64,000 nt of DNA. Origin: Anderseniella sp. GTDB taxonomy: Bacteria; Pseudomonadota; Alphaproteobacteria; Rhizobiales; Aestuariivirgaceae. The translations under genes were made by a program, and so were the position numbers. Of the stretch, positions 25,819 to 62,511 are shown in pieces. Under the pieces are notes generated by a model. That model was not told where the DNA came from. It saw only the letters and a list, made by a program, of their open reading frames with translations, and made no database searches. The DNA lies in NCBI GenBank assembly GCA_028289645.1, contig JANQOK010000016.1, positions 1-64,000 on the forward strand, given 5' to 3'. How positions within the stretch are numbered: the first letter of the stretch is position 1; each line of letters begins with the position of its first letter.

Positions 25819-25821
25819 CGC

Positions 25822-28397: not shown

Positions 28398-28480
28398 ATC
28401 GGGTCTTCCTTCCTGCTCGTTCCACCTGCACCATGTGATTCAAACTATTGAACGCAAGGCGGCCAGAAACGGGTCATCAA

Positions 28481-28505
28481 AATTGGTAAAAAAATATTAC
28501 CAATT
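28481..28505. promoter_or_regulatory. Palindrome upstream of glcD, GntR/FCD-type operator candidate
   Basis: Arms AATTGGTAA and TTACCAATT surround a 7-base A/T spacer. The half-site TTGGT/ACCAA is shared by FCD-type GntR regulators of hydroxyacid genes such as LldR, PdhR and GlcC, although their operators usually have a shorter spacer. It lies 84 bases upstream of the glcD start, in the 171-base gap after dctM. Confidence 0.55.
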
Positions 28506-28568
28506 AATTCGCCGCTTGGATACCCCTACTTTGGCTGAATATCAAACCGGTGTCGAATGCCGCAATTT

Positions 28569-33497: not shown

Positions 33498-33501
33498 GAC
33501 A

Positions 33502-35043
33502 TCAATCCTTCCAGTCAATCAGTTGGTCGCTGCCGGTGGCGCGCGAAACGTCTCCGCCGGTCACCAAACCAGCCGCCAGTTGCAGTTCGGGGGCCATAAA
33601 ACGATCTTCGGCCAGTGATGGCACGTCGCGGCGCAACCGGGCCAGCACGGCCTGCAGCCTGTCACTGGTCTTTAACGGCGCGCGGCATTCCACACCCTGC
33701 GCGGCGCACAGCAGTTCGACGCCAATAATGTTCGACAGGTTTTCGTTCATCTGCATGAGGCGCCGCGCGCCATGCGCGGCCATGGACACATGATCTTCCT
33801 GGTTGGCGCTGGTCGGGGTGGAATCGGTCGAACAGGGCGTAGCGAGATGCTTGTTCTCGCTCATCAGGGCGGCTGTGGTGACCTCGGCGATCATATAACC
33901 GGAATTCAGTCCCGGATCCGGGGTCAGGAACGGCGGCAGGTCGAAGCTCAGGGTCGGATCGACCATGACCGCCGTGCGGCGTTGCGAGATGGAGCCGATT
34001 TCCGCGATGGCCAGCGCCATCTGGTCGGCGGCGAATGCCACCGGCTCAGCATGGAAGTTGCCGCCCGACACAATCAGGCCGGTTTCTGACAGCACCAGCG
34101 GATTGTCGGTGACGGCGTTGGCTTCGATTTGCAGCGTGCAGCCGGCCTGGCGCAGCAGGTCGATGGCGGCACCGGTCACCTGCGGCTGGCAGCGAATGCA
34201 GTACGGATCCTGCACCCGGGTGTCGCCCTCGCGATGGCTTTCCCGGATTTCCGACCCCTGCATCAGATGGCGGATGGCGGCTGCCACATCAATCTGGCCG
34301 CGGTGGCCGCGAAGGGCATGGATTTCCGGCTGCAGGGGCGCGGTGGAGCCCATGATGGCATCGGTGCTGAGCGCGGACGCGACGATTGCCGCTTCGGCGT
34401 TGCGCCGGGCCTCGAAGTACCCGGCCAGGGCGAAGGCGGTTGAAAACTGGGTCCCGTTTATCAGCGCAAGGCCTTCCTTGGCGCCAAGTGTGATCGGCTT
34501 GAGACCGGCCTTGCTCAGAGCCTGCGCCGCCGGCATTGTCTCGCCGGCCAGCTCGGCGTCACCTTCCCCCAGCATCGCCGCCGCCATATGGGCCAGCGGG
34601 GCCAGGTCGCCGGAGGCGCCCACGGAACCTTGTGCCGGAACAACCGGGGTCACGCCCGTGGCCAGCATGGCCTGTATCTGTTCGATCACCAGCCAGCGCA
34701 CGCCGGAAGCGCCGCGGCCCAGCGACAACAGTTTCAGCACCATCATCAGGCGCGCAATGCCGGTCGGGATCGCCTCGCCGACACCGGAGCAGTGCGACAG
34801 GATCAGGTTGCGCTGCAGGGTCTCGGTGTCATCGGGCTTGATTTTCACCGATGCCAGCTTGCCGAAGCCGGTATTGACGCCATATACCGGCTCGCCGCCG
34901 CGCGCCGCATCGGCCACACGCGCCGCCGCCGCGTCGACCAACCCGCGTGCGCTGTCATCGAGCATTGCGGCAGCTCCCGAGCGATGCAGACGTTGCAATT
35001 GCTCAAGGCTGGTGCTTCCTGGCTGCAGGGTGACGCTGGTCAT
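33502..35043 (-). CDS. hutH: Histidine ammonia-lyase
   Basis: A 513-residue lyase that removes ammonia from histidine to form urocanate. The Ala143-Ser144-Gly145 triad (in [14 protein letters not shown]) self-cyclises into the MIO cofactor. [11 protein letters not shown] near residue 54 carries the catalytic Tyr, and the C-terminal [10 protein letters not shown] region is present. The length is standard. Its start overlaps the hutI stop by four bases; the extra 28 codons upstream in frame lie inside hutI. Confidence 0.97.
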
Positions 35044-36254
35044 GACACGGCGCCTGCGAACATGCGGCTGTGCAATGGGTTGAAGCCAATGCGGTAGGCC
35101 AGTTCGGCCGGATGTTCGACGTTCCATACTGCCAGGTCGGCACGTTTGCCCGCTTCCACGGTGCCGGTATCAGACAGGCCCAATGCGCGGGCTGCATTAC
35201 GCGTTGCCCCGGCCAGCGCTTCTTCCGGCGTCATGCGGAACAGCGTGCAGGCCATGTTCATGGTCAGCAACAGCGAGGTTGAGGGGGATGAGCCGGGGTT
35301 GCAGTCGGTGGCCACCGCCATGGCCACATTGTGCTTGCGAAACAGCTCAATCGGCGGCGCCTGGGTTTCACGCAGCGTGTAGAAGGCACCGGGCAGGATC
35401 ACGGCCACCGTGCCCGCCTCGGCCATGGCCTTAACACCCGTCTCATCGAGATACTCCAGATGATCGGCCGACAGTGCACCGTGGGCCGCCGCCAGCTTCG
35501 CACCGCCCAGATTTGACAACTGCTCGGCATGAAGCTTCACCGGCAGGCCCAATTCACCTGCTTTTTCAAACACTCGCTCTATTTGTGCAGACATAAAAGC
35601 AATGCCTTCGCAGAACCCGTCCACAGCATCGGCGAGCCCTTCGGCATGGGCTTTTTCCAGCGCCGGTATACAGACTTCATCGATATAGGCATCTGCCCTG
35701 CCCTTGTACTCGACGGGCACCGCATGTGCACCGAGGAACGATGTTTTCACGCGCACCGGGCGCTCGCCTTCGATCTTGCGTGCCACCCGCAACATGGCGA
35801 GCTCGGTATCAACATCAAGCCCGTACCCGGACTTGACCTCGATGGCTGTCACACCTTCCGCCAACAGCGCATCCACCCTCACAAGGGCGGCGTTCAGCAA
35901 TTCCTGCTCGCTGGCGCCCCGTGTCGCAGACACCGTGGAGACAATGCCGCCGCCGGCACGGGCCACCTCCTCATAGGTCGCTCCCTGCAGCCGCATTTCA
36001 AATTCACGCGCCCGATTGCCGCCGAACACGATGTGGGTATGACAGTCGATCAGGGCTGGCGTCACCAGGCGCCCCTCGAGATCATCCCGCTGCCAGCTGT
36101 CAAATTCTGACGGCACGCCATCGCGCGCGCCACACCAGACCACCTTGCCCGCATCCACGGCTATCGCCGCATCGGCAACGAGGCCATAAGGCGTCGCCCC
36201 GGCCGCCATGCTGGCCAGATTGAGATTCATCAGCAGTTTCGGGGAAGAGGACAC
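35040..36254 (-). CDS. hutI: Imidazolonepropionase
   Basis: A 404-residue zinc amidohydrolase that opens imidazolonepropionate to formiminoglutamate. The metal motif [10 protein letters not shown], then [32 protein letters not shown] and [11 protein letters not shown] define the family. The start is taken at a GTG ([15 protein letters not shown]) with AAGG six bases ahead. This gives the family length and falls 25 bases after the predicted transcription start. The upstream in-frame ATG at 36302 lies inside the promoter and should not be transcribed; an ATG at 36230 is possible. Confidence 0.95.
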
Positions 36255-36276
36255 ACGCACACCCTTGAATGTTTGA

Positions 36277-36305
36277 TTGTTCGTGATATTATGTGCAGAC
36301 ATAAT
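36277..36305 (+). promoter_or_regulatory. Predicted hutF promoter
   Basis: TTGTTC and CATAAT with 17-base spacing lie 26 bases before the hutF ATG. They overlap the divergent hutI promoter and the palindrome shared by both. Confidence 0.55.
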
Positions 36306-36307
36306 AT
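36286..36307. promoter_or_regulatory. Hut operator candidate (22-bp palindrome)
   Basis: Perfect 9-bp arms ATATTATGT and ACATAATAT flank GCAG. The palindrome fills the space between the -35 and -10 boxes of hutI and covers the hutF -10, so one bound dimer could silence both promoters. The probable ligand is the HutC protein encoded downstream of hutF. The hut inducer in other bacteria is urocanate. Confidence 0.7.
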
Positions 36308-36314
36308 GAGTCAA
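36286..36314 (-). promoter_or_regulatory. Predicted hutI promoter
   Basis: On the minus strand TTGACT and TAATAT are separated by exactly 17 bases, close to the sigma-70 consensus. Transcription would begin near 36279, which excludes the ATG at 36302 as the hutI start and supports the GTG at 36254. Confidence 0.7.
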
Positions 36315-36330
36315 TGCCGGACACTTTCTT

Positions 36331-37695
36331 ATGCAGCAAATCTGGGCTGAAACCGCACTCACCGCCGACGGCTGGCAGAACCATGTGCTGGTCAGCGTCG
36401 ACGGCACCGGGACCATAGCCAAGGTCGAGCCGGACACCGGGCCTGCCGGGTATCGCACCGGCATATTGCTGCCGGCGCCGGTCAACCTGCATTCGCATGC
36501 CTTCCAACGGGCCATGGCCGGGCTGACAGAGGCACGCGGGCCGGACCCGTCGGACAGTTTCTGGACCTGGCGGCAGTTGATGTACCGGTTTCTCGACCAG
36601 TTGACCCCGGACCACGTCGAGGCCATTACCGCATTTGTGCAGATGGAGATGCTGGAAGCCGGATATGCGGCCGTGGCTGAATTCCATTACCTGCATCATC
36701 AAACCGACGGCACGCCATATGACAATGTTGCTGAACTTTCCACCCGGATTTGTGCCGCTGCCGCAGAAACCGGCATCGGGCTGACATTGCTGCCGGTGCT
36801 CTACGAACACGGCGGTTGTGACGGGCGCGCGCTGGGGGCAGGCCAGAAACGCTTTGGCAACGCGCCGGACAAATACGCCTCGTTGCAGCAGGCGGCCGCC
36901 AAGGCCGCCACGGCCCTGCCGGAAGACACCATTGTCGGTGTGGCGCCGCATTCGCTGCGCGCTGTCAGCCGTGACGGGCTGAAATTTGCCGACTGGCTGG
37001 CCACTGACACGCCGATCCATATGCACCTGGCAGAACAGGTTGCCGAAGTGGAAGAGGTCGAGGCGGCCTGGGGCAAGCGCCCGGTCGACTGGTTGTTGTC
37101 GAACCATAAGGTCAACGAACGCTGGTGCCTGATCCACTGCACCCAGATGACGCCGGATGAAACGACAAGGCTGGCCGCCACAGGCGCGGTTGCGGGGCTT
37201 TGCCCGATCACCGAGTCCAGCCTCGGAGACGGCATGTTCGACGGCGTGCGCTATGCCGCTGCAAACGGGCGTTTCGGGGTCGGTTCGGATTCCAATATCC
37301 ACATCTCCCTGGCAGAAGAATTGCGCACGCTGGAATACTCACAGCGCCTGCGTGACAGGGGCCGCGCGATGCTGGCAACGCCGGACCGGTCCACCGGCCG
37401 GGTGCTGTTTGACGGCGCCTGTTCAGGCGGTGCCCAGGCTGCCGGACGCAATTGCGGCTCCATCAGGCCGGGCGGGCTGGCTGACCTTGTGTCACTTGAT
37501 GCCGGCAATCCCAATCTTGCCGGACGCTCGGGCGACGCTGTGCTCGACAGTTTCATCTTTGCCGGCGGTAACGAGCTTGTTTCCGACGTATGGGCAGCGG
37601 GTCGACACTGTGTTCATGAAGGCAATCACATGGCTCGTGGGCGTATTATTCAACGGTATATTGATACAATTCAGAGTTTGAATAACTCACTGTGA
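36331..37695 (+). CDS. hutF: Formimidoylglutamate deiminase
   Basis: A 454-residue amidohydrolase that converts N-formimidoylglutamate to N-formylglutamate and ammonia, the first step of the five-enzyme histidine route. [19 protein letters not shown] holds the metal-binding His pair; [31 protein letters not shown] and [17 protein letters not shown] follow. The product needs an N-formylglutamate deformylase (HutG), which is not in this window. The hutC start overlaps its stop. Confidence 0.95.
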
Positions 37696-50923: not shown

Positions 50924-51997
50924 ATGGACATGATCGCCGACATTGCCTCCACGGTTTTCACCCAGTTTCAGAAGCCTACGCTTGCCTTCCTGATCGGCGG
51001 CATGCTGATCGCGGCACTGGGAAGCAAACTGGAGGTCCCGGCTCCGGTATACAAGTTCATCGTCATCCTGCTGCTGCTCAAGGTCGGCCTCGGTGCCGGC
51101 ATCTCGGTGCGCGAGGCTGAATTCCTGACGCTGTTTGTTCCCGCCCTGTGCGCCGTGGCGCTGGGGGTCGGCATTGTCCTGCTCGGCAGTGTCACACTGG
51201 CGAGGTGGCGCGGCGTCTCGCGGGTCGACGGCCTTGCCACCGCGGGCATGTTCGGGGCTGTCTCAGCATCCACACTGGCCGCCGGCATGGCGGTGCTGGA
51301 CACTGAAGGGATCTACTATGAGGGCTTCATCGGCGCGCTGTATCCATTCATGGATATCGCCGCCCTGGTGACGGCCATCGTGCTGGCGAGAGTGTCAGCC
51401 GCACGGGCCGCAGTCCCGTCAACTCAAGGCGGCGGCACGGCCACGATGACCTTGGGCGGCGGATCTGCAGGTCAGGGGCGCATGGAAGGCTTCGATGGCA
51501 CGATGATAAAGAAGATTCTCACAGACACTTTCCGCAGCCCGGCGATCTCAGCGCTGCTGCTGGGACTGGGCCTGGGCATATTCACCAGGCCGGACAGCGT
51601 CTATGAGAGCTTTTACGAGGTTCTGTTCCGGGGTCTGCTGTCGGTGCTGATGCTGATCATGGGCATGGAGGCGTGGGCGCGGATTTCAGAACTGCGCAAG
51701 GTTGCCCACTCCTACATTATGTATGGTGTGGCAGCGCCAATTATCCATGGCTTGCTTGGGTTTGGCCTCGGGCTGATCGCGCATCACCTCACCGGCTTCT
51801 CAGCGGGCGGTGTGGTTCTGCTGGCGGTCATGGCTGGTTCGAGTTCCGACATTTCCGGGCCGCCGACGATGCGTGGCGCGGTTCCGGAAGCCAACCCGTC
51901 GGCCTATGTCGGCACCTCGACAGGGATCGGTACACCGGTGGCCATCCTGTCGATCCCGCTGTACATCGCACTCGCGGGCGCACTGATCGGGTTCTAG
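50924..51997 (+). CDS. Sodium-dependent bicarbonate transporter family permease (SbtA-like)
   Basis: A 357-residue membrane protein with about ten hydrophobic helices in two halves. It carries the SbtA family features TLAFLIGGMLIAALGSKLEVPAPVYKFIVILLLLKVGLGAG, FGAVSASTLAAGMAVLD, EGFIGALYPFMDIAALVTAIVLAR, GLLSVLMLIMGMEAWARI and VVLLAVMAGSSSDISGPPTMRGAVPEANPSAYVG. Cyanobacterial SbtA imports bicarbonate with sodium; the substrate in heterotrophs is not established. A Gly-rich cytosolic linker (STQGGGTATMTLGGGSAGQG) joins the halves. No sbtB-like PII gene is adjacent. Confidence 0.88.
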   Translation: MDMIADIASTVFTQFQKPTLAFLIGGMLIAALGSKLEVPAPVYKFIVILLLLKVGLGAGISVREAEFLTLFVPALCAVALGVGIVLLGSVTLARWRGVSRVDGLATAGMFGAVSASTLAAGMAVLDTEGIYYEGFIGALYPFMDIAALVTAIVLARVSAARAAVPSTQGGGTATMTLGGGSAGQGRMEGFDGTMIKKILTDTFRSPAISALLLGLGLGIFTRPDSVYESFYEVLFRGLLSVLMLIMGMEAWARISELRKVAHSYIMYGVAAPIIHGLLGFGLGLIAHHLTGFSAGGVVLLAVMAGSSSDISGPPTMRGAVPEANPSAYVGTSTGIGTPVAILSIPLYIALAGALIGF

Positions 51998-52433: not shown

Positions 52434-53111
52434 CTACCCGCGATCATTGGCCCTGAGCCATTCAGAAACGGTTTCCAGCTTGTTGCGCAGGTGCTGTTTC
52501 AGGATGAGGCCGAGCCTGCGGCCGTCACGGGCTTCAAGGGCGGCGAGGATGTCCTCGTGTTCGGCCACCGCCTTGTCCCAGCGCTCGCGGGTCATGTTGG
52601 CGAGATAGCGGGCCCGGCGCACCCTCGCTGACAGCATGCGGTGCTGGGCCGCCAGCGTGTCGTTGCGTGCGGCCTTCAGAATGGCCGTATGAATGGCTTC
52701 ATTGGCGGCGAAGTACTCCGGCAGGCGCTGTGCCTTGTAGTGCCCGATCATCTCGCGATGGGATTTGCCGACGGCGGCGATTTCCGCATCGGTGATCTTC
52801 TCGCAGGCCAGTTCTCCAGACAGCGCTTCCAGCGCTCCCATGACCGGAAACACCTCTTCCAGATCCTCGACGGTGACGGCGGTAACGGAAGAGCCGCGAT
52901 TGGGGGTCAGTGTCACCAGTCCTTCGGAGGCAAGAACTTTCAGCGCTTCGCGCATTGGCGTGCGCGACACGTTGTAGCGTTCGCACAGCTCCTTCTCAGG
53001 CACCTTCTCGCCCGGCGTCAGTTCACCTTCAATGATCAGCCGCTGCAGCCGTTCGACCAGTTCGTCATGCAGGGAACGCCGCACAATGGCTTCGTCCATT
53101 GTTATGTTCAT
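52434..53111 (-). CDS. GntR family regulator with FCD domain
   Basis: A 225-residue FadR-type regulator. The winged helix is at about residues 10-75 (SLHDELVERLQRLIIEGELTPGEKVPEKELCERYNVSRTPMREALKVLASEGLVTLTPNRGSSV), and an all-helical FCD ligand domain follows with metal-binding candidates (EYFAANEAIHTAILKAARN, AEHEDILAALEARD). Its ATG overlaps the stop of the FAD/Fe-S dehydrogenase, so the two are co-expressed. The likely target is the palindrome in the divergent promoter at 56.04 kb; the inducer is probably the acid metabolised by that operon. Confidence 0.92.
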   Translation of the reverse strand: MNITMDEAIVRRSLHDELVERLQRLIIEGELTPGEKVPEKELCERYNVSRTPMREALKVLASEGLVTLTPNRGSSVTAVTVEDLEEVFPVMGALEALSGELACEKITDAEIAAVGKSHREMIGHYKAQRLPEYFAANEAIHTAILKAARNDTLAAQHRMLSARVRRARYLANMTRERWDKAVAEHEDILAALEARDGRRLGLILKQHLRNKLETVSEWLRANDRG

Positions 53112-56023
53112 CGGCCGGCTCCTTCCATCTTGTCCGCAATGGCCATCTCGAGCACGCGGGCCACGTGTATGGCACCGCGGCCAGTGCCGTCTGCGATCTG
53201 GTGGCGGCACGATGTACCGTCCGCCACGATCAGTGTATCCGATTCTGCCACACGCACCGACGGCAGCAGGGATAACTCGCCCATGGCCCGTGACACCTCA
53301 TATGTCTCCGCCTGGTAGCCAAATGCGCCGGCCATGCCGCAGCACGAGCTTTCGACCGTATCCACCTCAAGCCCCGGCACCAGTTTCAGGGCGGCGGTTA
53401 CACTGCCCATGACATTATGCGCCTTCTGGTGGCAATGGCCATGCAGCAGCGCCTTGCGCTCCAGGGCGGTGAACTCAAACCTGTCCGCATGGGTCACCAC
53501 GAATTCTTCGAACATCATCGCGGCAGCGGCGATCTCGTCCGCCTCCGGCCCCAGTTTAAGGACAGTCAGTTCATCGCGCAGCGTCAGCAGGCAGGACGGC
53601 TCAAGGCCAACGATCTTTGCCCCGGCACGCACCAGCGGCAGGTAAGCGGCAATCAGGCGCCGGGCCTCGGCACGCGCCTCGTCGACCAGGCCCGACGCCA
53701 GAAATGTCCTGCCGCAGCACGGCGGCCGCGATGATCCTTCAGGCAGCGGCGATAAAACCTTGAACCCGCCCGCCGCCAGGACGGCGCGCGCAGCATGCAG
53801 GTTCTCGCTGTCAAACCAGGTGTTGAAGGTATCACCGAACAGGATCACCGGATCGCCATCTGCCGAACCGGCACTGGTGCCATGGCGATAGCTGTCGGAC
53901 CGCCATTTCGGCAAGCTCCGCCGGCGCGAAAGCCCGGCAATGGTTTCGCTCAGTCCGGCCAGGCCCGGCACCGTGTCGCGGGCATTCGCCAGCCAGGGCA
54001 CGCGGGCGAGGTATGGCGCATAGCGCGGCATGTGGGCCAAAAGCCGGTCGCGCAGGCTTAAACCCGCTTTGGCCACCCGGGCGGCCGCCACCTCGATCTT
54101 CATGGCCGCCATATCCACGCCGGTCGGGCATTCGCGCTTGCATGCCTTGCAGCCGACGCACAGCTTCATGGCCTCCGCCATGGCATCGCTGGTCAGGGCG
54201 TCCGGCCCGAGCTGCCCGGACATGGCGAGCCGCAGCGAGTTGGCGCGCCCGCGCGTCAGGTGGGCCTCATCGCGGGTGACCCGGTACGACGGGCACATGG
54301 CGCCCCCGGCAAGCTTGCGGCAGGCGCCATTGTTGTTGCACATCTCTACTGCGCCCTGAAATCCGCCGCCAGCACCTGGCCACTGCGACCAGTCGAGCGC
54401 GGTTGGCATGTCGGGCACCTGGTAGTCCTGATTGAAGCGGAACAGCGAGCGGTCATCCATTTTCGGCGCATCGACGATCTTGCCCGGGTTGAACACACTG
54501 TCGGGATCGAACATCCGCTTCACTTCGCGGAAGCTGGTCATCATGCGGGTGCCGAACATCTTCTCATTGAACTCGGAGCGCACGATGCCGTCGCCGTGTT
54601 CGCCGGAATGTGAGCCCTTGTACCTGCGCACCAGCTCGAACGCCTCCTCGGCGATGGCTCGCATCGTGTTGACGTCGTGCTCGAGGCGCATGTTGAGCAC
54701 CGGGCGCACGTGCAGGCAGCCGACCGAGGCATGGGCATACCAGGTGCCGCGCGTGCCGTGCTTCTCAAAGATGTCAGTCAGCCCCGCCGTGTAGGCGCCA
54801 AGGTCCTTCAGTTCAACCGCGCAGTCTTCCACAAAGGAGACCGGCTTTCCCTCCTGCTTCATGGACATCATGATGTTGAGGCCGGACTTGCGCACTTCGG
54901 CCAGGTCCGCCTGCAGGCCCGGCTCGTTGACCTCGACCACACCGCCGGCATGCTTGCCCGGTCGCGACCAGTCGAAGCCCAGCTCACCCATAACCTGATG
55001 CAGCTGTTTCAGCCGGCGCAGATTCTCCTGCCAGTCATCCTCTGCGAAGTCCACCAGCAGCAGGGCGTCCGGTTCGCCTTTCACCACCTGTTCGATGGTC
55101 GGGCGGAAGATGTCGATACCGCGGGCCAGTTCGATCATGGTGCGGTCGACCAGTTCGACCGCTACCGGGTCAAGCCTTACAATATGCTGGGCCGCATCCA
55201 TGGCGGCATGAAAGGTCGGGAAGTGGCAGACGCCCATGGCCTTGCGCACCGGCAACGGCGACAGTTTGAGCGTGATCCTGTCGGACCAGGCCAGAGTGCC
55301 TTCCGAGCCCACCAGCAGAGACGACAGGTTTGCAGGCGCCCCGTTCGAGACCAGCGCGTCGATGTTGTAGCCGCCGACACGGCGCATGACTTTTGGAAAT
55401 TTTTCAGCGATCTCGTCCTGTTCCCGGGCACCAAGCGCCAGCAGGTCGGGCACGAAGTCCGGCTGCCCCGCCGCGCCGGTCTCGGCAAACCGCGCCTTGG
55501 ATCCGTCGGCAAGGAACGCATCGATGGCCAGCACATTGTCGCGCATCATGCCGTAGCGCAGCGAGCGGCCGCCACAGGAGTTGTTGCCGGCCATGCCGCC
55601 GATGGTGGCGCGCGACGCCGTCGACACGTCGATGGGATACCACAGCCCGTGCGGCTTCAGCTGCCGGTTCAGGTCGTCCAGCACAATGCCCGGCTCGACA
55701 ATGCAGGTGCGCGCCTCGACATCCAGCTCGAGCAGCCGGTTCAGGTGTTTTGAACAATCGACCACGACGCCGTCGTTGACGGTCTGACCGCATTGCGAGG
55801 TGCCGCCGCCGCGCGGCAGCACCGAAACCCCTTCCTCGCGGGCCAGAGAGATGACGTTGCGCACGTCGTTGGACGAGCGCGGCACCACCACAGCGCGCGG
55901 CATGATCTGGTAGATCGAGGCATCGGTTGCATAGCGCCCGCGCGAAAACGCGTCATCCATCACTTCGCCTTCCACGCTGTCGCGCAGGCGCCGGGTGAAC
56001 GCGGATAATGCAAGTGTGGTCAC
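53108..56023 (-). CDS. FAD-binding and Fe-S-binding 2-hydroxyacid dehydrogenase (YdiJ/D-2-hydroxyglutarate or D-lactate dehydrogenase type)
   Basis: A 971-residue fusion of a GlcD-like flavoprotein and a GlcF-like electron carrier. FAD motifs are LPRGGGTSQCGQTVNDG and TIGGMAGNNSCGGRSLRYGMMRDN; HSGEHGDGIVRSEFNEKMFG closes the oxidase domain. CVGCKACKRECPTGVDM binds Fe-S near residue 640; the CCG domains have PPCCGRTFLASG and HGHCHQKAH...SSCCGMAGAFGY. Relatives oxidise D-2-hydroxyglutarate or D-lactate. It starts at a GTG 8 bases after AAGG and is divergent from an aminotransferase-TRAP operon. The substrate is not certain. Confidence 0.9.
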   Translation of the reverse strand: MTTLALSAFTRRLRDSVEGEVMDDAFSRGRYATDASIYQIMPRAVVVPRSSNDVRNVISLAREEGVSVLPRGGGTSQCGQTVNDGVVVDCSKHLNRLLELDVEARTCIVEPGIVLDDLNRQLKPHGLWYPIDVSTASRATIGGMAGNNSCGGRSLRYGMMRDNVLAIDAFLADGSKARFAETGAAGQPDFVPDLLALGAREQDEIAEKFPKVMRRVGGYNIDALVSNGAPANLSSLLVGSEGTLAWSDRITLKLSPLPVRKAMGVCHFPTFHAAMDAAQHIVRLDPVAVELVDRTMIELARGIDIFRPTIEQVVKGEPDALLLVDFAEDDWQENLRRLKQLHQVMGELGFDWSRPGKHAGGVVEVNEPGLQADLAEVRKSGLNIMMSMKQEGKPVSFVEDCAVELKDLGAYTAGLTDIFEKHGTRGTWYAHASVGCLHVRPVLNMRLEHDVNTMRAIAEEAFELVRRYKGSHSGEHGDGIVRSEFNEKMFGTRMMTSFREVKRMFDPDSVFNPGKIVDAPKMDDRSLFRFNQDYQVPDMPTALDWSQWPGAGGGFQGAVEMCNNNGACRKLAGGAMCPSYRVTRDEAHLTRGRANSLRLAMSGQLGPDALTSDAMAEAMKLCVGCKACKRECPTGVDMAAMKIEVAAARVAKAGLSLRDRLLAHMPRYAPYLARVPWLANARDTVPGLAGLSETIAGLSRRRSLPKWRSDSYRHGTSAGSADGDPVILFGDTFNTWFDSENLHAARAVLAAGGFKVLSPLPEGSSRPPCCGRTFLASGLVDEARAEARRLIAAYLPLVRAGAKIVGLEPSCLLTLRDELTVLKLGPEADEIAAAAMMFEEFVVTHADRFEFTALERKALLHGHCHQKAHNVMGSVTAALKLVPGLEVDTVESSCCGMAGAFGYQAETYEVSRAMGELSLLPSVRVAESDTLIVADGTSCRHQIADGTGRGAIHVARVLEMAIADKMEGAGR

Positions 56024-56033
56024 GCAATAGGCC

Positions 56034-56062
56034 TTGACATAATTTTGAATGCAAAATTAAAT
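56034..56062 (+). promoter_or_regulatory. Predicted promoter of the aminotransferase-TRAP operon
   Basis: TTGACA, a perfect -35, is followed after 17 bases by TTAAAT. The spacer is filled by a palindrome, so this is a strong promoter under direct repression. The start codon of the aminotransferase is 80 bases downstream. Confidence 0.6.
56040..56059. promoter_or_regulatory. 20-bp palindrome, operator candidate for the GntR-FCD regulator
   Basis: Arms TAATTTTG and CAAAATTA are perfect 8-bp complements around AATG. The palindrome lies between the -35 and -10 boxes of the plus-strand promoter and 17 bases upstream of the dehydrogenase start on the other strand, so one site can control both directions. 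TTTTG/CAAAA half-sites are common in FCD-type GntR operators. Confidence 0.65.
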
Positions 56063-56141
56063 ATACGCATTCCAATCAAGGTGGCAAGGCCGAACCGGGC
56101 CGGCAGAAACCATCACCTGAGACGTCAAAGGATTTTTCGAC

Positions 56142-57338
56142 ATGCATGCCGCAGGCCGCCATTTTCTGCAGATCCCCGGACCGACCAATGTGCCCGACCG
56201 GGTGCTGCGCGCGATGGACTACCCGACCATGGACCACCGCGGCCCGGCCTTTGCCGAAGTCGGGCTGAAATGCCTGGACGGCATGAAATCGATCTTCAAG
56301 ACCGACAAGACCGTGGTGATCTATCCAGCTTCGGGCACCGGGGCATGGGAAGCAGCCCTGGTCAACACGCTGTCGCCCGGCGACAAGGTGCTGATGTGCG
56401 AAACCGGGCACTTCGCCTCGTTGTGGAGCAAGCTTGCCAGGCGCCTCGGCCTTGAGCCGGTGCTGATCGAAACCGACTGGCGACGCGGTGCGGTGCCGGA
56501 GGCTATCGGCGAGGCGTTGGACCAGGACACGGCGCACGACATCAAGGCGGTGTGCGTGGTGCACAACGAAACTTCGACTGGCTCAACCTCGCGCATCGCA
56601 GACGTGCGCGCGGCAATGGATGCAGCCGGCCACCCTGCCCTGTTGATGGCCGACACGATTTCCTCGCTGGCGTCGATTGACTTCCGCCATGACGAATGGG
56701 GTGTCGATGTTACCGTGGCCGGCTCGCAGAAGGGCCTGATGCTGCCGCCGGGCCTGAGCTTCAACGCCGTCAGTGACAAGGCGCTGGAGGCATCGAAAAC
56801 CGCAAAACTGCAGAAATCCTACTGGGCATGGGATGAGATGGCGGGACCCAACCAGACCGGCTACTTCCCCTACACGCCGGCCACCAACCTGCTGTACGGG
56901 CTGGCCGAAGCCATCGACATGCTGCACGAGGAAGGCCTCGACAATGTGTTTGCCCGCCACAAGCGCCATTCCGAAGCCACCCGACGCGCGGTGCAGGCCT
57001 GGGGGCTCGAAGTCTTGTGCAACGAGCCGAAGGACTATTCGCACGCGCTGACCGCGGTGCTGTTGCCGGACGGCCACAATGCCGACGAGTTTCGCGCCAC
57101 CACGCTGCAACATTTCAACATGTCTCTGGGCAATGGCCTGTCACGGCTGGCCGGCAAGGTGTTCCGCATCGGCCATCTCGGCGACTTCAACGATCTCATG
57201 CTGATGGCCACCCTGTCGGGTGTTGAGATGGGTCTCGGCGTGGCCGGTGTTCCGCACCAGACGGGCGGCGCACAACGCGCCATGGAGTATCTGAAGACCG
57301 CCGCAACAGAAGAAAGCAGCTCTGTTGCGGCTGAATAA
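56142..57338 (+). CDS. Alanine/serine/aspartate-glyoxylate aminotransferase family protein
   Basis: A 398-residue class V PLP aminotransferase: FLQIPGPTNVPDRVLRAMDYPTMDHRGPAF, PASGTGAWEAAL, VCVVHNETSTGSTS, MADTISSLASIDFRHDEWGVDVTVAGSQKGLMLPPGL (PLP lysine in GSQKG). The length is normal. Glyoxylate-accepting family members use serine, alanine or aspartate as donor; the sequence alone does not choose. It is the first gene of a six-gene operon and is divergent from the FAD/Fe-S dehydrogenase, suggesting the dehydrogenase makes the oxo acid it aminates. Confidence 0.9.
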   Translation: MHAAGRHFLQIPGPTNVPDRVLRAMDYPTMDHRGPAFAEVGLKCLDGMKSIFKTDKTVVIYPASGTGAWEAALVNTLSPGDKVLMCETGHFASLWSKLARRLGLEPVLIETDWRRGAVPEAIGEALDQDTAHDIKAVCVVHNETSTGSTSRIADVRAAMDAAGHPALLMADTISSLASIDFRHDEWGVDVTVAGSQKGLMLPPGLSFNAVSDKALEASKTAKLQKSYWAWDEMAGPNQTGYFPYTPATNLLYGLAEAIDMLHEEGLDNVFARHKRHSEATRRAVQAWGLEVLCNEPKDYSHALTAVLLPDGHNADEFRATTLQHFNMSLGNGLSRLAGKVFRIGHLGDFNDLMLMATLSGVEMGLGVAGVPHQTGGAQRAMEYLKTAATEESSSVAAE

Positions 57339-57378
57339 AAGACTGAACGCTGCAAGTCCTTTTGGGAGGAAAACTGAA

Positions 57379-58362
57379 ATGAAAAGCATTATCAAGGTAT
57401 TGGCCTTTTCCACCGCGCTGGCCGCCATGGCGTCTGCGGCGCATGCTGAGAAACTGATCCTGAAATTCGGCCATGTCGGCAAGCCTGGCTCGCTGTTTGC
57501 AGCCTCGGTTGACGAATTTGCCAAGCGAGCCAATGCAGCACTCGGCGACAAGGCGGAAGTCCAGGTGTTCGGCTCGTCTCAGCTCGGCAAGGACAAGGAA
57601 CTGCTGCAGAAGCTCAAGCTCGGCCAGATCACCTTCTCGCTGCCGTCATCGGTGATGTCGTCGGTGTCGGACACGTTCGGCGTGTTCGAAATGCCCTATA
57701 TTATCAAGGACCGCGATCACATGAAGCGGGTCCAGGCATCCATGGGCGACACCTTCCAGGCCGCCGCCAATGCCAAGGGCTATCGCATCCTGACTTATTT
57801 CGAGAACGGCTTCCGCCACATCACCAACAACACCAAGCCGATCAACAAGCCTGAGGACCTGGCCGGCATCAAGCTGCGCACGCCGAAGGGATCGTGGCGC
57901 GTCAAGATGTTCAAGCTTTATGGCGCAAACCCGACACCGATGGCGTTTTCCGACGTGTTCACCGCACTCAAGACCGGCGTGATCGATGGCCAGGAAAACC
58001 CGTATGCGCAGATCTGGTCGGCCAAGTTCCAGGAAGTGCAGAAATACCTGTCGATCACCGGCCACGTGTATACGCCGGCCTATGTGCTGGTGTCCGACGA
58101 ACATTTCGGCAAACTGCCTGAAGACGTGCAGAAGACCCTGATGGATGTCGCCGCGGATACCCAAGGCTTCGTCTATGAGACCGCCGCAAACCTGGAAACC
58201 GAGTTGCTGGAAAACCTGAAAAAAGGCGGCATCACGGTCAACACCGCCGACAAGGCGGCCTTCATCAAAGCCTCCAAGCCGATCTATGACGAGTTCTCAA
58301 GCTCTGTCGACGGCGGCAAGGAACTGATCGAGAAGGTGCAGGCGGAAGCGTCCGGCGCCTAA
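57379..58362 (+). CDS. dctP: TRAP transporter substrate-binding protein (DctP), second system
   Basis: A 327-residue periplasmic binding protein with a Sec signal (MKSIIKVLAFSTALAAMASAAHA). The mature part has LKFGHVGKPGSLFAASVDEFAKRANAALG, VQVFGSSQLGKDKELLQKLKLGQITF, GIKLRTPKGSWRVKMFKLYGANPTPMAFSDVFTALKTGVIDGQENPY and HVYTPAYVLVSDEHFGKLP. Arginine in KLRTP is the usual carboxylate clamp. It differs from the hut-linked protein by having a Sec, not Tat, signal. GGGAGGA precedes the ATG. Two hairpins follow it before dctQ. Confidence 0.94.
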   Translation: MKSIIKVLAFSTALAAMASAAHAEKLILKFGHVGKPGSLFAASVDEFAKRANAALGDKAEVQVFGSSQLGKDKELLQKLKLGQITFSLPSSVMSSVSDTFGVFEMPYIIKDRDHMKRVQASMGDTFQAAANAKGYRILTYFENGFRHITNNTKPINKPEDLAGIKLRTPKGSWRVKMFKLYGANPTPMAFSDVFTALKTGVIDGQENPYAQIWSAKFQEVQKYLSITGHVYTPAYVLVSDEHFGKLPEDVQKTLMDVAADTQGFVYETAANLETELLENLKKGGITVNTADKAAFIKASKPIYDEFSSSVDGGKELIEKVQAEASGA

Positions 58363-58376
58363 ACCGGGATAACTGT

Positions 58377-58399
58377 CGGGGATGATTTTCCCATCCCCG
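58377..58399 (+). promoter_or_regulatory. First hairpin between dctP and dctQ
   Basis: CGGGGATG pairs with CATCCCCG around a 7-base loop, just after the dctP stop. With the second hairpin it forms a tandem processing or attenuation site. Confidence 0.5.
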
Positions 58400-58408
58400 T
58401 CCTCCCTG

Positions 58409-58439
58409 ATGAAGGCCGGTGAACACAACCGGCCTTCAT
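58409..58439 (+). promoter_or_regulatory. Second hairpin between dctP and dctQ
   Basis: A perfect 12-bp stem (ATGAAGGCCGGT with ACCGGCCTTCAT) with a 7-base loop is followed by TTTC. It resembles a leaky intrinsic terminator that would lower permease expression relative to the binding protein. Confidence 0.6.
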
Positions 58440-58478
58440 TTTCAGACGTTGCTTGAACAAGGGCTAGAGGCAACCAGA

Positions 58479-58970
58479 ATGACCGGCGTTTTCGGCCGCG
58501 GGCTTGGCCGCACACTTGAATGGATCCTGATTACCCTGATGGTGACCCTGACCACACTGGTCATTGTCGCGGTGGTGTACCGCAAGCTCGGCAACTCACT
58601 GTCCTGGTATGACGAGGTGGCCTCCATCGTCTTGTCATGGATCACCTATTACGGCGCGGCGCTGGCCGCACTGAGGCGCAAGCACATCGGCTTTGACTCG
58701 GTGCTGCTGGCGATCCCGATGCCGGTGCGCATGTGGGCGGTGGCGTTTGGCGAGGTCATCGTCATCGGCTTCTTCATCCTGATGGCGTGGGCCGGCTTCA
58801 GGGTGCTGGACGTGCTGCAGGGCGAAACCCTCGACAGCCTGACGTGGGTCCCGGTGCAGCTGACCCAGTCGGTCATCCCGATCGGCGCGCTGCTGTTTAT
58901 CCTGTGCGAGCTGCTCAGCCTGCCGGACTACTGGAGGCAGATCGCTGCCGGCCAGTCGTCTGAGCATTAG
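58479..58970 (+). CDS. dctQ: TRAP transporter small permease (DctQ), second system
   Basis: A 163-residue membrane protein with four predicted helices (WILITLMVTLTTLVIVAVVYRKLG, SIVLSWITYYGAALAALRR, WAVAFGEVIVIGFFILMAWAGF, SVIPIGALLFILCELLSL) and the DctQ segment WYDEVASIVLSW...RRKHIGFDSVL. AGAGG precedes the ATG; the in-frame GTG at 58419 lies within the attenuator hairpin and is unlikely. Confidence 0.92.
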   Translation: MTGVFGRGLGRTLEWILITLMVTLTTLVIVAVVYRKLGNSLSWYDEVASIVLSWITYYGAALAALRRKHIGFDSVLLAIPMPVRMWAVAFGEVIVIGFFILMAWAGFRVLDVLQGETLDSLTWVPVQLTQSVIPIGALLFILCELLSLPDYWRQIAAGQSSEH

Positions 58971-58983
58971 AGGGAGATCGGTC

Positions 58984-60267
58984 ATGGTTGTGCTGATCAT
59001 CTTTCTGGTTCTCGTCGCCCTCATCTGCATCAATGTGCCCATCGCCGTGGCGCTGGCCGTTGCCGGCGTTGTCGGGCTGTTGCTGACCGAAGGCACTAGC
59101 TCGCTGGTCACCGTGGCGCTCGACATGTATGACGGCTCGACGAAGTTCTCGCTGATCGCCATTCCGATGTTCGTGCTGGCAGGCGCCATCATGAACGCGG
59201 CCGGCATCACCTACCGGCTGATCAATTTCATCACCGCGCTGATCGGCTTTGTGCGCGGCGGTCTGGCCATGGTCAATATCGGCGTGTCGCTGTTCTTTGC
59301 TGAAATCTCAGGATCCGCCGTGGCCGACGTCGCCGCCATGGGCTCGATCATGATCCCGGAAATGAAGAAACGCGGCTATACGGCGCCGTTCGCCGCCGCG
59401 GTCACCTCGTCGTCGGCGTCGCTGGCAGTGATCATCCCGCCGTCGATTCCGATGATCCTGTATGCCTCGTCGGCCAACACCTCCGTAGAGCAACTTTTCG
59501 TAGCCGGTTTCGTACCCGGCTTTATCGGCGGCCTGGGACTGATGCTGGTGGCCTATGTGTTTGCCCGCAAATACAACTTCCCGGTCGAAGAGACCTTCAA
59601 CCTGAAGCGCCTGCGCGAGACCTTCGTCGAGGCGCTGCCGACCTTCCTGCTGCCGATCATCATTCTGGGCGGCATTTTCGGCGGCTTCGTCACCGCCACC
59701 GAAGCAGCCGGCCTGGCCGTGCTGGTGGCCATCGGCATCGGCCTGTGGTACCGCGAAACCAATCTGAAGGAACTGTACAATGCCATGCTGGACGGCGGCA
59801 TGCAGACTGCCGTTGTCATGGTGCTGGTGGCGGCCTCGGTGCTGGTCGGCGGTTTCCTGACAAGGGCCCAGGTGCCGCAGGAGCTGGCCTCGCAGCTTTT
59901 GTCGATCACCGACAACCAGTACGTCATCTTGCTGATCCTCAACATCTTCTTCCTGATCATCGGCTTCTTCCTGCACTCGGCCGCCGCCATCATCCTGGTG
60001 GTGCCGATCGTGGTGCCGCTGATCGTGCAGGCCGGCATCGATCCGGTGCACTTCGGCCTTGTGGTCACACTCAACCTGGCCATCGGCCAGCAGACCCCGC
60101 CGGTGGCCTCGGTGCTGATCACCGCGTGCTCCATCGCCAGGGCCAACATCTGGGACGTGACGCGGGTCAATATCTGGTTTGTCGCGGTGCTGATGACAGT
60201 GCTGTTGATGTGCACCTATATTCCGGCCATACCCATGTTCCTGGTGGAATACTTCTACAGATCGTAA
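58984..60267 (+). CDS. dctM: TRAP transporter large permease (DctM), second system
   Basis: A 427-residue multi-spanning permease of the standard DctM length: STKFSLIAIPMFVLAGAIMNAAGIT, EISGSAVADVAAMGSIMIPEMKKRGY, ASLAVIIPPSIPMILYASSAN, TEAAGLAVLVAIGIGLWYRE, LNLAIGQQTPPVASVLITACSIARAN. It moves the DctP-bound acid inward with sodium. It follows dctQ by 13 bases with GGGAG before the ATG, and the crotonase gene follows after 10 bases. Confidence 0.94.
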   Translation: MVVLIIFLVLVALICINVPIAVALAVAGVVGLLLTEGTSSLVTVALDMYDGSTKFSLIAIPMFVLAGAIMNAAGITYRLINFITALIGFVRGGLAMVNIGVSLFFAEISGSAVADVAAMGSIMIPEMKKRGYTAPFAAAVTSSSASLAVIIPPSIPMILYASSANTSVEQLFVAGFVPGFIGGLGLMLVAYVFARKYNFPVEETFNLKRLRETFVEALPTFLLPIIILGGIFGGFVTATEAAGLAVLVAIGIGLWYRETNLKELYNAMLDGGMQTAVVMVLVAASVLVGGFLTRAQVPQELASQLLSITDNQYVILLILNIFFLIIGFFLHSAAAIILVVPIVVPLIVQAGIDPVHFGLVVTLNLAIGQQTPPVASVLITACSIARANIWDVTRVNIWFVAVLMTVLLMCTYIPAIPMFLVEYFYRS

Positions 60268-60277
60268 AGGCTCTGGG

Positions 60278-61060
60278 ATGACTGAACCGCAAGACCTGCT
60301 GTGGAGCGAAGACGACGGCGTCGGTGTGATCACGCTCAACCGGCCGCAGGCGCGCAACGCGCTGACCTTCGCCATGTACGAGGCCATTCGCGACATCTGC
60401 GAGCGTGCCGCCGGCAACAAGGACTTGCGCGCCGTCATCCTGACCGGGTCAGGCGACAAGGCATTTGCAGCCGGCACCGACATCTCCTCCTTCCGCGACT
60501 TCACCAAGCCGCAGGACGCGCTCGACTACGAGGCGCGCATCGACAAGGTGCTGGCCGCGCTTGAAGCGGTGCCAGTACCGACGATCGCCGCCATCTCGGG
60601 CGCGTGCACCGGCGGCGGCGCGGCCATTGCGGCGTGCTGCGATTTACGCCTCGGCGCGCGTGACATGCGCTTCGGGTTTCCCATTGCCCGCACGCTGGGC
60701 AACTGCCTCAGCAACAACAACCTGGCGCGGCTGTCGTCCATGCTGGGCGCGCACCGGGTCAAGGAGATCATCTTCACCTCGCGCCTGATCGAGGCCGACG
60801 AGGCGCTGGCGCTCGGGCTGGTGTCGGAACTGCATGACGACAAGGCCGCCGTACTGGCCCGCGCCTGTGAACTGGCGGAAACGCTGAAGGGCCATGCCCC
60901 GCTGACCATGCGCGCCACCAAGGAGGCGCTGCGCCGGCTGCGCGTCGGCCATGACGGCGACGACCACGACCTGATCGTCGAATGCTATATGAGCGATGAC
61001 TTCCGCGAAGGCATGGAAGCCTTCCTGGCCAAGCGCAAACCGCAGTGGAAGGGAAAATAA
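60278..61060 (+). CDS. Crotonase-superfamily protein lacking both hydratase glutamates
   Basis: A 260-residue protein with the enoyl-CoA hydratase fold. The CoA oxyanion-hole elements AFAAGTDISSF and SGACTGGGAAIAACCD are present. Compared with rat enoyl-CoA hydratase, the catalytic Glu144 (GGGCELA) is replaced by Ala116 and Glu164 (FGQPEI) by Ile136, and the PGAGGTQRL loop becomes CLSNNNLARL. Ordinary hydration is therefore unlikely; an isomerase, lyase, dehalogenase-like or thioesterase-type reaction is more plausible. It lies between a TRAP permease and a CoA-transferase gene, so it probably acts on the CoA ester of the imported acid or its product. Confidence 0.88.
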   Translation: MTEPQDLLWSEDDGVGVITLNRPQARNALTFAMYEAIRDICERAAGNKDLRAVILTGSGDKAFAAGTDISSFRDFTKPQDALDYEARIDKVLAALEAVPVPTIAAISGACTGGGAAIAACCDLRLGARDMRFGFPIARTLGNCLSNNNLARLSSMLGAHRVKEIIFTSRLIEADEALALGLVSELHDDKAAVLARACELAETLKGHAPLTMRATKEALRRLRVGHDGDDHDLIVECYMSDDFREGMEAFLAKRKPQWKGK

Positions 61061-61066
61061 ACTGCC

Positions 61067-62263
61067 ATGGCGGAGGTTCCCAATACGGGGCCCTTGAAGG
61101 GCATGAAGGTCATCGAGATGGCGCACATCATGGCAGGCCCCGTGACCGGCCTGATGCTGGCCGACATGGGCGCCGACGTGATCAAGGTGGAACGGCCCAA
61201 CGGCGATGACACGCGCCGCTTCCTGCCGCCGGATATCGAGGGTGAGTCGGCGGCCTTCATGATGATGAACCGCAACAAGCGCGGCATCCGCCTGGACCTC
61301 AAGACCGAAGCCGGCAAGGCGGCACTGATCCGGCTCATCGAGCAGGCCGACTGCCTGATCGAGAATTACCGCCATGACACCATGGAGAAACTCGGGCTCG
61401 GCTATGACGAGCTGAAGAAAATCAATCCGGGCCTGATCTACTGCGAGATCTCCGGCTTCGGCCGCACCGGGCCGTATCGCGAGCGCGGCGGCTTCGACCT
61501 GATCGCCCAGGGCATGTCGGGACTGATGTCGATTACCGGCGAGGCCCCCGGCAGGCCGCCGGTCAAGGTCGGTGCGCCGGTGTCCGACATCACCGCCGGC
61601 ATCCTGGGCGCCATGGGCTGTGCGGCCGCCTATGCCCACAAGCTGAAGACCGGCGAGGGCCAGAGGGTTGACACATCGCTGTTCGAAGCCGGCATCACCC
61701 ACACCTACTGGCAGTCGGCGATCTGTTTCGCCACCGGCACCGCGCCCGGACCCATGGGTTCGGCGCATCCACTGAATGCACCCTATGAAGCGTTCAGGAC
61801 TGCAGACGGTTGGCTCAACCTAGGCGCGGCCAACCAGACCAATTGGGAGCGCATGCTGAAGGTGATTGATGCAGAGCACCTGGCTGAAAACCCGAGCTTT
61901 GCCAGCAACCGCACCCGGATGGAAAACAGGGCCGAGCTGGCCGAGGCGCTTGCGCCCTATTTCAAGCCCGAGACCACGCAGCATTGGCTCGAGGCGCTGG
62001 AAGCAGCGGGCGTGCCCGCCGGTCCGGTATTGGCAATCGATGACATGCACGCCGATCCGCAGACCATCGCCCGCGACATGGTGCCGGAAGTCGACCACCC
62101 GGTGGCCGGCACAGTGAAAACCATCGGCGCGCCGGTGAAATTCCACGGCACGCCTGCCGGCGTCAAACGCCCTGCCCCGCTGCTGGGTGAACACACCGAG
62201 GAGGTGCTGGCAGAGGCCGGGTTCTCGGCCGACGAGATCAAGGCTGTTCTAAAAGGTGACTGA
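61067..62263 (+). CDS. Class III CoA-transferase (CaiB/BaiF family)
   Basis: A 398-residue CoA-transferase: GPLKGMKVIEMAHIMAGPVTGLMLADMGADVIKVERPNGDD, MMMNRNKRGIRLDLKT, LIYCEISGFGRTGPYRERGGFDLIAQGMSGLMSITG, and VGAPVSDITAGILGAMG with the catalytic aspartate. These enzymes exchange CoA between carboxylic acids such as succinate, oxalate, carnitine, citramalate or mesaconate. It follows the crotonase gene by 6 bases and closes the operon. The acid it activates is presumably the substrate brought in by the TRAP transporter. Confidence 0.93.
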   Translation: MAEVPNTGPLKGMKVIEMAHIMAGPVTGLMLADMGADVIKVERPNGDDTRRFLPPDIEGESAAFMMMNRNKRGIRLDLKTEAGKAALIRLIEQADCLIENYRHDTMEKLGLGYDELKKINPGLIYCEISGFGRTGPYRERGGFDLIAQGMSGLMSITGEAPGRPPVKVGAPVSDITAGILGAMGCAAAYAHKLKTGEGQRVDTSLFEAGITHTYWQSAICFATGTAPGPMGSAHPLNAPYEAFRTADGWLNLGAANQTNWERMLKVIDAEHLAENPSFASNRTRMENRAELAEALAPYFKPETTQHWLEALEAAGVPAGPVLAIDDMHADPQTIARDMVPEVDHPVAGTVKTIGAPVKFHGTPAGVKRPAPLLGEHTEEVLAEAGFSADEIKAVLKGD

Positions 62264-62301
62264 CTGACGCGTCGAGCGGCGTAAGTGACCCACCCACAAT
62301 C

Positions 62302-62389
62302 GTCATTCCAGCGAAGGCTGGAATCCATCTCTCGGCACGCACCGGGCATTCAACTCGTGTTGGACCCCAGCCTTCGCTGGGGTGACGAG
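62302..62389. repeat. Bimeric REP-like element, copy 1
   Basis: Two perfect 8-bp stem hairpins face each other: ATTCCAGC/GCTGGAAT with loop GAAG (62305-62324), and ACCCCAGC/GCTGGGGT with loop CTTC (62364-62383), joined by about 39 bases. It lies in the intergenic space before the DegT-type gene and may also act as a transcript 3' end for the CoA-transferase operon. Confidence 0.88.
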
Positions 62390-62511
62390 TATATTAACTT
62401 CTCCCACTCCAGACTGACCGCCTGATGCTCCGGGTCCTTTCGGCTTTGGCACCACATCAATTTGCCGCTGGCGCTTGCGCCAACCTGCTGTTTCGGCACT
62501 ATGCTGGGATC

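Follow-up and report, generated by a model that had tools for sequence, protein, structure and literature searches.

The 64,000-nucleotide stretch analysed here, referred to below as the window (positions 1 to 64,000 of contig JANQOK010000016.1 from Anderseniella sp., contig C6 in our numbering of this 4.8-Mb genome), carries a compact set of eight genes at 52434-62263. Two genes on the minus strand, encoding a GntR-FCD regulator and a 2-hydroxyacid dehydrogenase with flavin adenine dinucleotide (FAD) and 4Fe-4S domains, diverge from six on the plus strand, which encode an aminotransferase, the three subunits of a tripartite ATP-independent periplasmic (TRAP) transporter, a crotonase-fold protein and a class III coenzyme A (CoA) transferase (Table 1). 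An earlier note, made from the letters of the sequence, had described this arrangement as a closely spaced operon facing two divergent genes, and all eight genes are present as stated. Spacing is indeed short: with the chosen starts, the successive gaps between the six plus-strand genes are 40, 56, 13, 10 and 6 bases, and the GntR and dehydrogenase genes overlap by 4 bases, given the ATG start chosen for the regulator. An alternative TTG start of DctP at 57325 would turn the 40-base gap into a 14-base overlap with the aminotransferase gene.

Table 1. Features of the eight-gene module, in positions of the window
Feature	Position	Strand	Evidence
GntR-FCD regulator	52434-53111	-	Pfam FCD 86.3 bits, GntR 69.1 bits; ATG start chosen
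FAD/4Fe-4S single-chain 2-hydroxyacid dehydrogenase, 971 residues	53108-56023	-	FAD_binding_4, FAD-oxidase_C, Fer4_8, CCG
Divergent spacer, 118 bases	56024-56141	.	Sequence
Predicted palindromic operator, ATTTTGAATGCAAAAT	56042-56057	.	Conserved among related spacers
Class V aminotransferase, BhcA/serine-glyoxylate aminotransferase family	56142-57338	+	BhcA model 472.2 bits
TRAP solute-binding protein DctP	57379-58362	+	TIGR00787 234.5 bits (cut-off 175); ATG start chosen
TRAP small permease DctQ	58419-58970	+	Pfam DctQ 71.8 bits (cut-off 28.3)
TRAP large permease DctM	58984-60267	+	TIGR00786 377.4 bits (cut-off 268)
Crotonase-fold protein lacking both hydratase glutamates	60278-61060	+	PRK06144 386.5 bits (cut-off 272)
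Class III CoA-transferase, dicarboxylate-type relatives	61067-62263	+	Pfam CoA_transf_3 441.4 bits

The neighbourhood recurs in other genomes, as a search suggested by the earlier note revealed. Scanning named genomes with an alignment of the dehydrogenase yielded 583 confirmed stretches, of which the best 80 are called named loci here; together with 32 loci from the order of the window genome and six plasmid loci they make up 118 dehydrogenase loci. The 32 belong to a set of 39 order loci of at most 20 kb that were picked via the aminotransferase and mapped with the window proteins, so only the 80 dehydrogenase-picked loci give an unbiased count of the aminotransferase; these 80 are not independent of one another, because 21 of them are titled Bradyrhizobium. 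The aminotransferase (at least 58% identity) is found in 73 of the 80 named loci and in 111 of all 118. The seven named loci without a match are L095, L120, L128, L138, L141, L148 and L156 (locus numbers are ours), and contig ends may truncate several of them. GntR (at least 40% identity) follows with 41/80 and 78/118. Lower counts were obtained for DctP (19/80 and 39/118), for TctA of another carrier type (24/80 and 29/118), for crotonase of the window type at 45% identity or more (36/80 and 47/118), for the CoA-transferase at 53% identity or more (12/80 and 23/118) and for an HbpS/GlcG-like gene, here called GlcG-like (33/80 and 44/118). Gene order repeatedly recurs across the 39 order loci. 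The constant part of the module is the dehydrogenase and the aminotransferase, often with GntR; the transporter and the CoA branch vary.

Seven families (dehydrogenase, aminotransferase, GntR, DctP, DctM, a crotonase of either subtype A or subtype B, and CoA-transferase, at any place within the locus and leaving DctQ aside) occur together in 18 of the 118 loci, namely 11/80 named, 6/32 order and 1/6 plasmid loci; one of the 18, L105, is a gammaproteobacterial metagenome-assembled genome (MAG). On a plasmid of Limimaricola variabilis, all eight genes stand in the window's order. The dehydrogenase and aminotransferase are also present on Cupriavidus and Caballeronia replicons and in Desulfofustis and Desulfobulbaceae MAGs. 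Two genomes of the class, each a single 1.2-Mb contig (L198 and L199; 32% G+C in the stretches), carry the dehydrogenase at 44-45% identity along with the aminotransferase, DctPQM, crotonase B and CoA-transferase, and no match to GntR was found in these stretches. Elsewhere TRAP is replaced by TctCBA, major facilitator superfamily and other carriers, mostly of carboxylate or general type; an Acidiphilium locus, which has no dehydrogenase at that place, carries a gene of the bile-acid:sodium-symporter family instead of TRAP. The CoA-transferase/crotonase pair is frequently missing or substituted.

The 118-base spacer between the two transcription units contains a palindrome, ATTTTG-AATG-CAAAAT. 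Taking ATTTTGAATGCAAAAT from the window, we scored it in 90 spacers between dehydrogenase and aminotransferase genes, counting as a match at least 12 of the 14 fixed positions. Matches were found in 41 of the 89 other spacers (42/90 with the window), as compared to approximately 0.2 expected from single-base shuffles, a figure uncorrected for kinship; among dehydrogenase-picked loci only, 19 of 57 spacers match. A frequent form among the spacers is ATTATGAATTCATAAT. In the window's own genome, a looser motif gave five sites with one mismatch or fewer; two of these are exact (56042-56057 and C6:494691). Frames next to the other four have no evident link to the module by eye, no family search having been made, so the idea of a wider regulon was set aside and GntR most likely regulates locally, at what the spacer comparison predicts to be its palindromic operator. 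The earlier note had spoken of one palindromic promoter serving both directions. Its palindrome holds up well; in place of a shared promoter, shared operator is the better term. A sigma-70-like pair lies at 56087-56060 on the minus strand, and scanning 55950-62500 gave 2 sigma-70-like sites versus 1.4 expected, so the pair is no evidence of a promoter.

Co-occurrence was assessed in 337 genomes of the class, with relatives taken at E 1e-250 or better for the dehydrogenase, 1e-60 or better for the crotonase and 1e-165 or better for the CoA-transferase. All 14 genomes with the crotonase also have the dehydrogenase, which is found in 57 of the 337 (Fisher p 3.6e-12, uncorrected for kinship), and 11 of these 14 genomes have the two genes on separate contigs or over 100 kb from each other. 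Ten of the 15 genomes with the CoA-transferase contain the dehydrogenase (p 1.4e-5). Individual loci show the CoA enzymes in varied company. CoA-transferase and crotonase stand together in L187 and L200-L202, with neither core enzyme within the stretch; L191 combines GntR and TRAP with the crotonase and CoA-transferase but lacks both core enzymes, and L192 has those four plus the aminotransferase and a GlcG-like gene but lacks the dehydrogenase, which in both genomes is on another contig.

Taken together, these comparisons leave us nearly certain that the module is a real, widespread and locally regulated functional unit. The sequences show it to be built from a conserved two-enzyme core, often accompanied by the GntR-FCD gene and the conserved putative operator, with an exchangeable transporter and an optional CoA branch. 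The full pathway proposed in the earlier note is thus upheld as a functional unit by neighbourhood, operator and co-occurrence; a single linear route through all eight genes is unsupported, given the exchangeable transporter and CoA pair. Among the papers listed from open-licence full-text literature, which mostly excludes subscription journals, none matched this gene set or pathway, which agrees, as weak evidence, with the earlier note, to which no pathway with this exact set was known.

The dehydrogenase resembles YdiJ, the D-2-hydroxyglutarate dehydrogenase, in that one chain holds the FAD domains and, after them, an Fe-S part. It differs in score, reaching 505.9 bits with the YdiJ model NF049975 against a cut-off of 1350, and identity with YdiJ was rejected. 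With GlcDEF it shares FAD- and Fe-S-dependent oxidation of 2-hydroxyacids, and a GlcG-like gene lies near many relatives of the module; unlike GlcDEF, the window enzyme is one chain of 971 residues, and both the genome and the window hold glc genes besides it. Its scores against glcD (201.1 of 567.9) and GlcF (48.5 of 333) are both under cut-off. The glc genes of the window lie at 24514-28397, where GlcF (450.4) and GlcE (297.3) are above cut-off and a GlcD-like protein reaches 450.3 of 567.9. With a TRAP DctM-type gene upstream, they form a separate glycolate oxidase locus spanning 24514-30140.

The aminotransferase scores 472.2 bits with the BhcA model NF045640, under the cut-off of 650, while a copy on contig C8 of the same genome reaches 716.7; the best solved relative of the window protein is 6pk1, named serine-glyoxylate aminotransferase. 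In the aminotransferase tree, two BhcA rows and the C8 and C17 copies form a clade with 100/99 support, separate from the window aminotransferase; the rooting is unsure because a long branch, the genome's own C7 copy, joins that clade. Being under cut-off and outside the clade, the window aminotransferase was rejected as BhcA.

The beta-hydroxyaspartate cycle nevertheless invites comparison. Its aminotransferase belongs to the same family, and bhc genes adjoin the module in two named Roseobacters: bhcABCD in Tateyamaria omphalii and a bhc-like cluster with BhcC above cut-off in Roseovarius confluentis. A Filomicrobium MAG has BhcB/BhcC-like genes next to the module. Homologues of bhcABCD and bhcR, 48-83% identical to those of Tateyamaria, are also present elsewhere in the window's own genome, on contig C8 (L208, 3770-9063). 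In contrast to the cycle, none of the eight genes at 52434-62263 is bhcB, bhcC or bhcD, all belonging to other families, and the module has an additional dehydrogenase, TRAP transporter and CoA enzymes. In L064, L076, L114 and L120, a BhcC-like enzyme of the DSD1 family, 41-49% identical to Tateyamaria BhcC, stands by a CoA-transferase gene.

All three transporter subunits score above their cut-offs as DctP-, DctQ- and DctM-type TRAP proteins (Table 1). By both sequence and fold, the nearest solved chain to DctP is 4nq8, with 4pdd, 4pdh, 4p9k and 4pak also among the nearest; some of these five are pantoate or D-erythronate binders. The structure model of DctP has a predicted local distance difference test score (pLDDT) of 80.6, weaker than that of the crotonase (92.4). 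Pantoate/D-erythronate is named as a TRAP ligand class in PMC5812351. Among the matches listed in fold searches with DctP and the crotonase, no title settled a ligand or a reaction.

The crotonase belongs to the PRK06144 subfamily (NF004796), and its model matches crotonases in fold. Enoyl-CoA hydratases use two catalytic glutamates, Glu144 and Glu164 in the rat enzyme. In an active-site comparison, the two positions that hold Glu in the solved crotonase 5z7r are Ala and Ile in the window protein, so it is not a hydratase in the catalytic sense. Comparison of 51 rows distinguished three crotonase subtypes near the module, all without the second glutamate: subtypes A (that of the window) and C lack both, and subtype B retains the first. 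No one reaction is favoured by the titles among the 50 nearest folds listed. That the CoA ester is rearranged, as previously suggested, is unproven for a crotonase without these two residues.

The CoA-transferase is a family III member (PF02515; gathering threshold 23.3). Its nearest models are succinate-glutarate CoA-transferase (NF052585; 364.9 of 750 bits) and mesaconate CoA-transferase (294.1 of 700), and it reaches 253 bits against a cut-off of 504 for formyl-CoA:oxalate CoA-transferase (frc); the frc and succinate-glutarate identities were rejected on these scores. The best solved relatives include 9br7, named succinate-hydroxymethylglutarate CoA-transferase. A class III CoA-transferase paired with a crotonase-fold enzyme is also found in the acuN-acuK acrylate module, from which the window differs in the missing hydratase glutamates and in the partner genes. 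The oxalate frc/oxc pair offers another analogy, with a class III CoA-transferase as a possible recycler of CoA; the window module has no thiamine-dependent oxalyl-CoA decarboxylase and does not reach the frc cut-off. In three of the 118 loci, all from SAR116, a malonyl-CoA decarboxylase gene (Pfam-tested in L149, the other two being 71-95% identical) lies 3' of the aminotransferase gene, at the place taken by the crotonase and CoA-transferase in other loci, and two other SAR116 loci (L117 and L152) carry the crotonase instead. A malonyl-CoA synthase gene adjoins the module in Tateyamaria.

We favour, with a middling degree of confidence, the reading that this is a catabolic module under local regulation whose substrate, a small hydroxy-carboxylate, would be imported, oxidised to a 2-oxoacid and transaminated. 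In this scheme, DctPQM would import the anion, and the dehydrogenase would convert a D-type 2-hydroxyacid to the 2-oxoacid, possibly glyoxylate or a close analogue, and hand the electrons on to respiration via its Fe-S domain. The aminotransferase would then yield a glycine-like amino acid. A link to glyoxylate is suggested by the family of the aminotransferase, by the GlcG-like gene in 44 of the 118 loci, and by the bhc genes that adjoin the module in Tateyamaria and Roseovarius and are present on contig C8 of the window's genome. The CoA-transferase and crotonase may open the imported (di)carboxylate in a step that depends on CoA and is not simple hydration, letting it enter the same route. 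GntR would repress both transcripts at the central palindrome until the pathway acid binds its FCD domain. We are moderately certain of hydroxy-acid oxidation combined with transamination; the identity of the substrate and the role of the CoA branch are uncertain.

Several results weigh against this hydroxy-carboxylate module or narrow it. No enzyme of the module reaches the cut-off of a curated model that names a substrate. Five of the 15 genomes with the CoA-transferase have no dehydrogenase, so the CoA-transferase has other uses. In Rhizobium sp. NXC24, an amino-acid ATP-binding cassette transporter adjoins the core and is a poorer fit to a carboxylate. The working direction of the aminotransferase, like the order of reactions, is an assumption of the scheme. 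Above its cut-off, bhcB occurs in 2 of 56 genomes with the dehydrogenase (own genome excluded) versus 1 of 80 others, so a general tie of the module to the beta-hydroxyaspartate cycle is unsupported; at the looser E 1e-60 the counts are 53/56 and 47/80, a level that most likely counts paralogues, since Escherichia coli and other controls match too. Finally, all 53 dehydrogenase genomes of the order sample have glcE at E 1e-40 or better (204/249 overall), so the module as a replacement for glycolate oxidase is likewise unsupported. The substrate is more likely a distinct hydroxy-acid.

Among other explanations, a second glycolate salvage route, in which glycolate is brought in by DctPQM, turned into glyoxylate by the dehydrogenase and then into glycine by the aminotransferase, with the CoA enzymes as a side branch, is possible although rather unlikely. 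The BhcA/serine-glyoxylate family of the aminotransferase, the GlcG-like gene in 44 loci, the bhc neighbours of the module in two named genomes and the Desulfofustis locus would all suit it, Desulfofustis glycolicus being known to oxidise glycolate. However, every dehydrogenase genome of the order sample also has glcE, the window itself holds the glc genes described above, bhcB shows no general association and the CoA branch would be left unexplained. Likewise rather unlikely is the breakdown of a 2-hydroxy-dicarboxylate of four or five carbons (D-malate or D-2-hydroxyglutarate, for example), oxidised to oxaloacetate or 2-oxoglutarate and transaminated to aspartate or glutamate, with the dicarboxylate activated by CoA. 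Here YdiJ as the nearest named dehydrogenase model, succinate/glutarate and mesaconate as substrates of the nearest CoA-transferase models, 9br7 among the solved relatives and the naming of the related BhcA model for aspartate all point the same way, but the three model scores are far under their cut-offs, and some near DctP relatives (among 4nq8, 4pdh, 4p9k and 4pak) are pantoate or D-erythronate binders.

Improbable is a malonate-type route in which the CoA-transferase activates tartronate (hydroxymalonate) or some other beta-carboxy acid and the crotonase-fold protein decarboxylates it to a 2-hydroxyacyl-CoA, after which CoA would be handed back and glycolate or a homologue oxidised and transaminated. 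Loss of both hydratase glutamates, the SAR116 malonyl-CoA decarboxylase genes, the Tateyamaria malonyl-CoA synthase gene, a malonyl-CoA decarboxylase homologue (38% identity) near the module in L198 and the 253 bits with the formyl-CoA:oxalate model are consistent with such a route. The loci behind it are few, L117 and L152, also from SAR116, carry the crotonase instead, subtype B retains one glutamate, none of the 50 closest listed folds has a title naming a decarboxylase, and no tartronate catabolic route of this kind appears by title or abstract start among the literature matches listed. The fully specified version, in which a glycolyl-CoA:tartronate-type CoA-transferase and a crotonase-fold decarboxylase lead to a 2-hydroxyacid and from there to a 2-oxoacid and an amino acid, is more improbable yet; if true, it would be the crotonase-fold counterpart of the oxalate Frc/Oxc pair. 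A chance neighbourhood of unrelated carboxylate genes, for which nothing but the gene families themselves would speak, has hardly any probability and was rejected, since order, operator and co-occurrence are conserved across lineages. A sulfonate substrate, considered on account of TauE-like neighbours, was dropped; with three queries, such frames turned up in 6 of 127 loci, not counting the gene in L198 that served as a query.

The module, parts of which many soil and marine bacteria share, recurs in rhizobia, Roseobacters, members of SAR116, MAGs of Thermodesulfobacteriota and two low-G+C genomes of 1.2 Mb, which points to a hydroxy-acid often met by bacteria and missing from pathway maps. 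Because all components belong to well-understood enzyme and transporter classes, its substrate should be findable by a small ligand screen.

Some related loci carry further genes. The Desulfofustis locus L089 adds genes for a PrpR-like sigma-54 activator, an aconitase-family protein and a zinc alcohol dehydrogenase (Pfam-tested in L089 only), and L112 has frames of similar size. L198 also contains a second TRAP system, with the malonyl-CoA decarboxylase homologue nearby. In the actinobacterium Nonomuraea gerenzanensis (L077), the aminotransferase (65%) adjoins a more distant dehydrogenase (39.5%). Hydantoinase-like genes lie by the module in the SAR116 loci L149 and L150, and L149 also has a hydroxyisourate-hydrolase-like gene, all of them judged by eye from their first residues.

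Neither of two genes near the module, the DegT/DnrJ aminotransferase gene next downstream (62425) or the Sbt_1 gene (50924), recurs in the 39 mapped order loci. The latter, of the sodium-dependent bicarbonate transporter superfamily, spans 50924-51997 and is divergent from what by eye is a LysR-like gene. On the 3' side of the CoA-transferase gene, a stretch rich in inverted repeats (approximately 62300-62390) resembles an interspersed repeat by eye. Farther away in the window, at 31821-36626, lie the histidine utilisation genes hutU, hutH and hutI, each above its cut-off.

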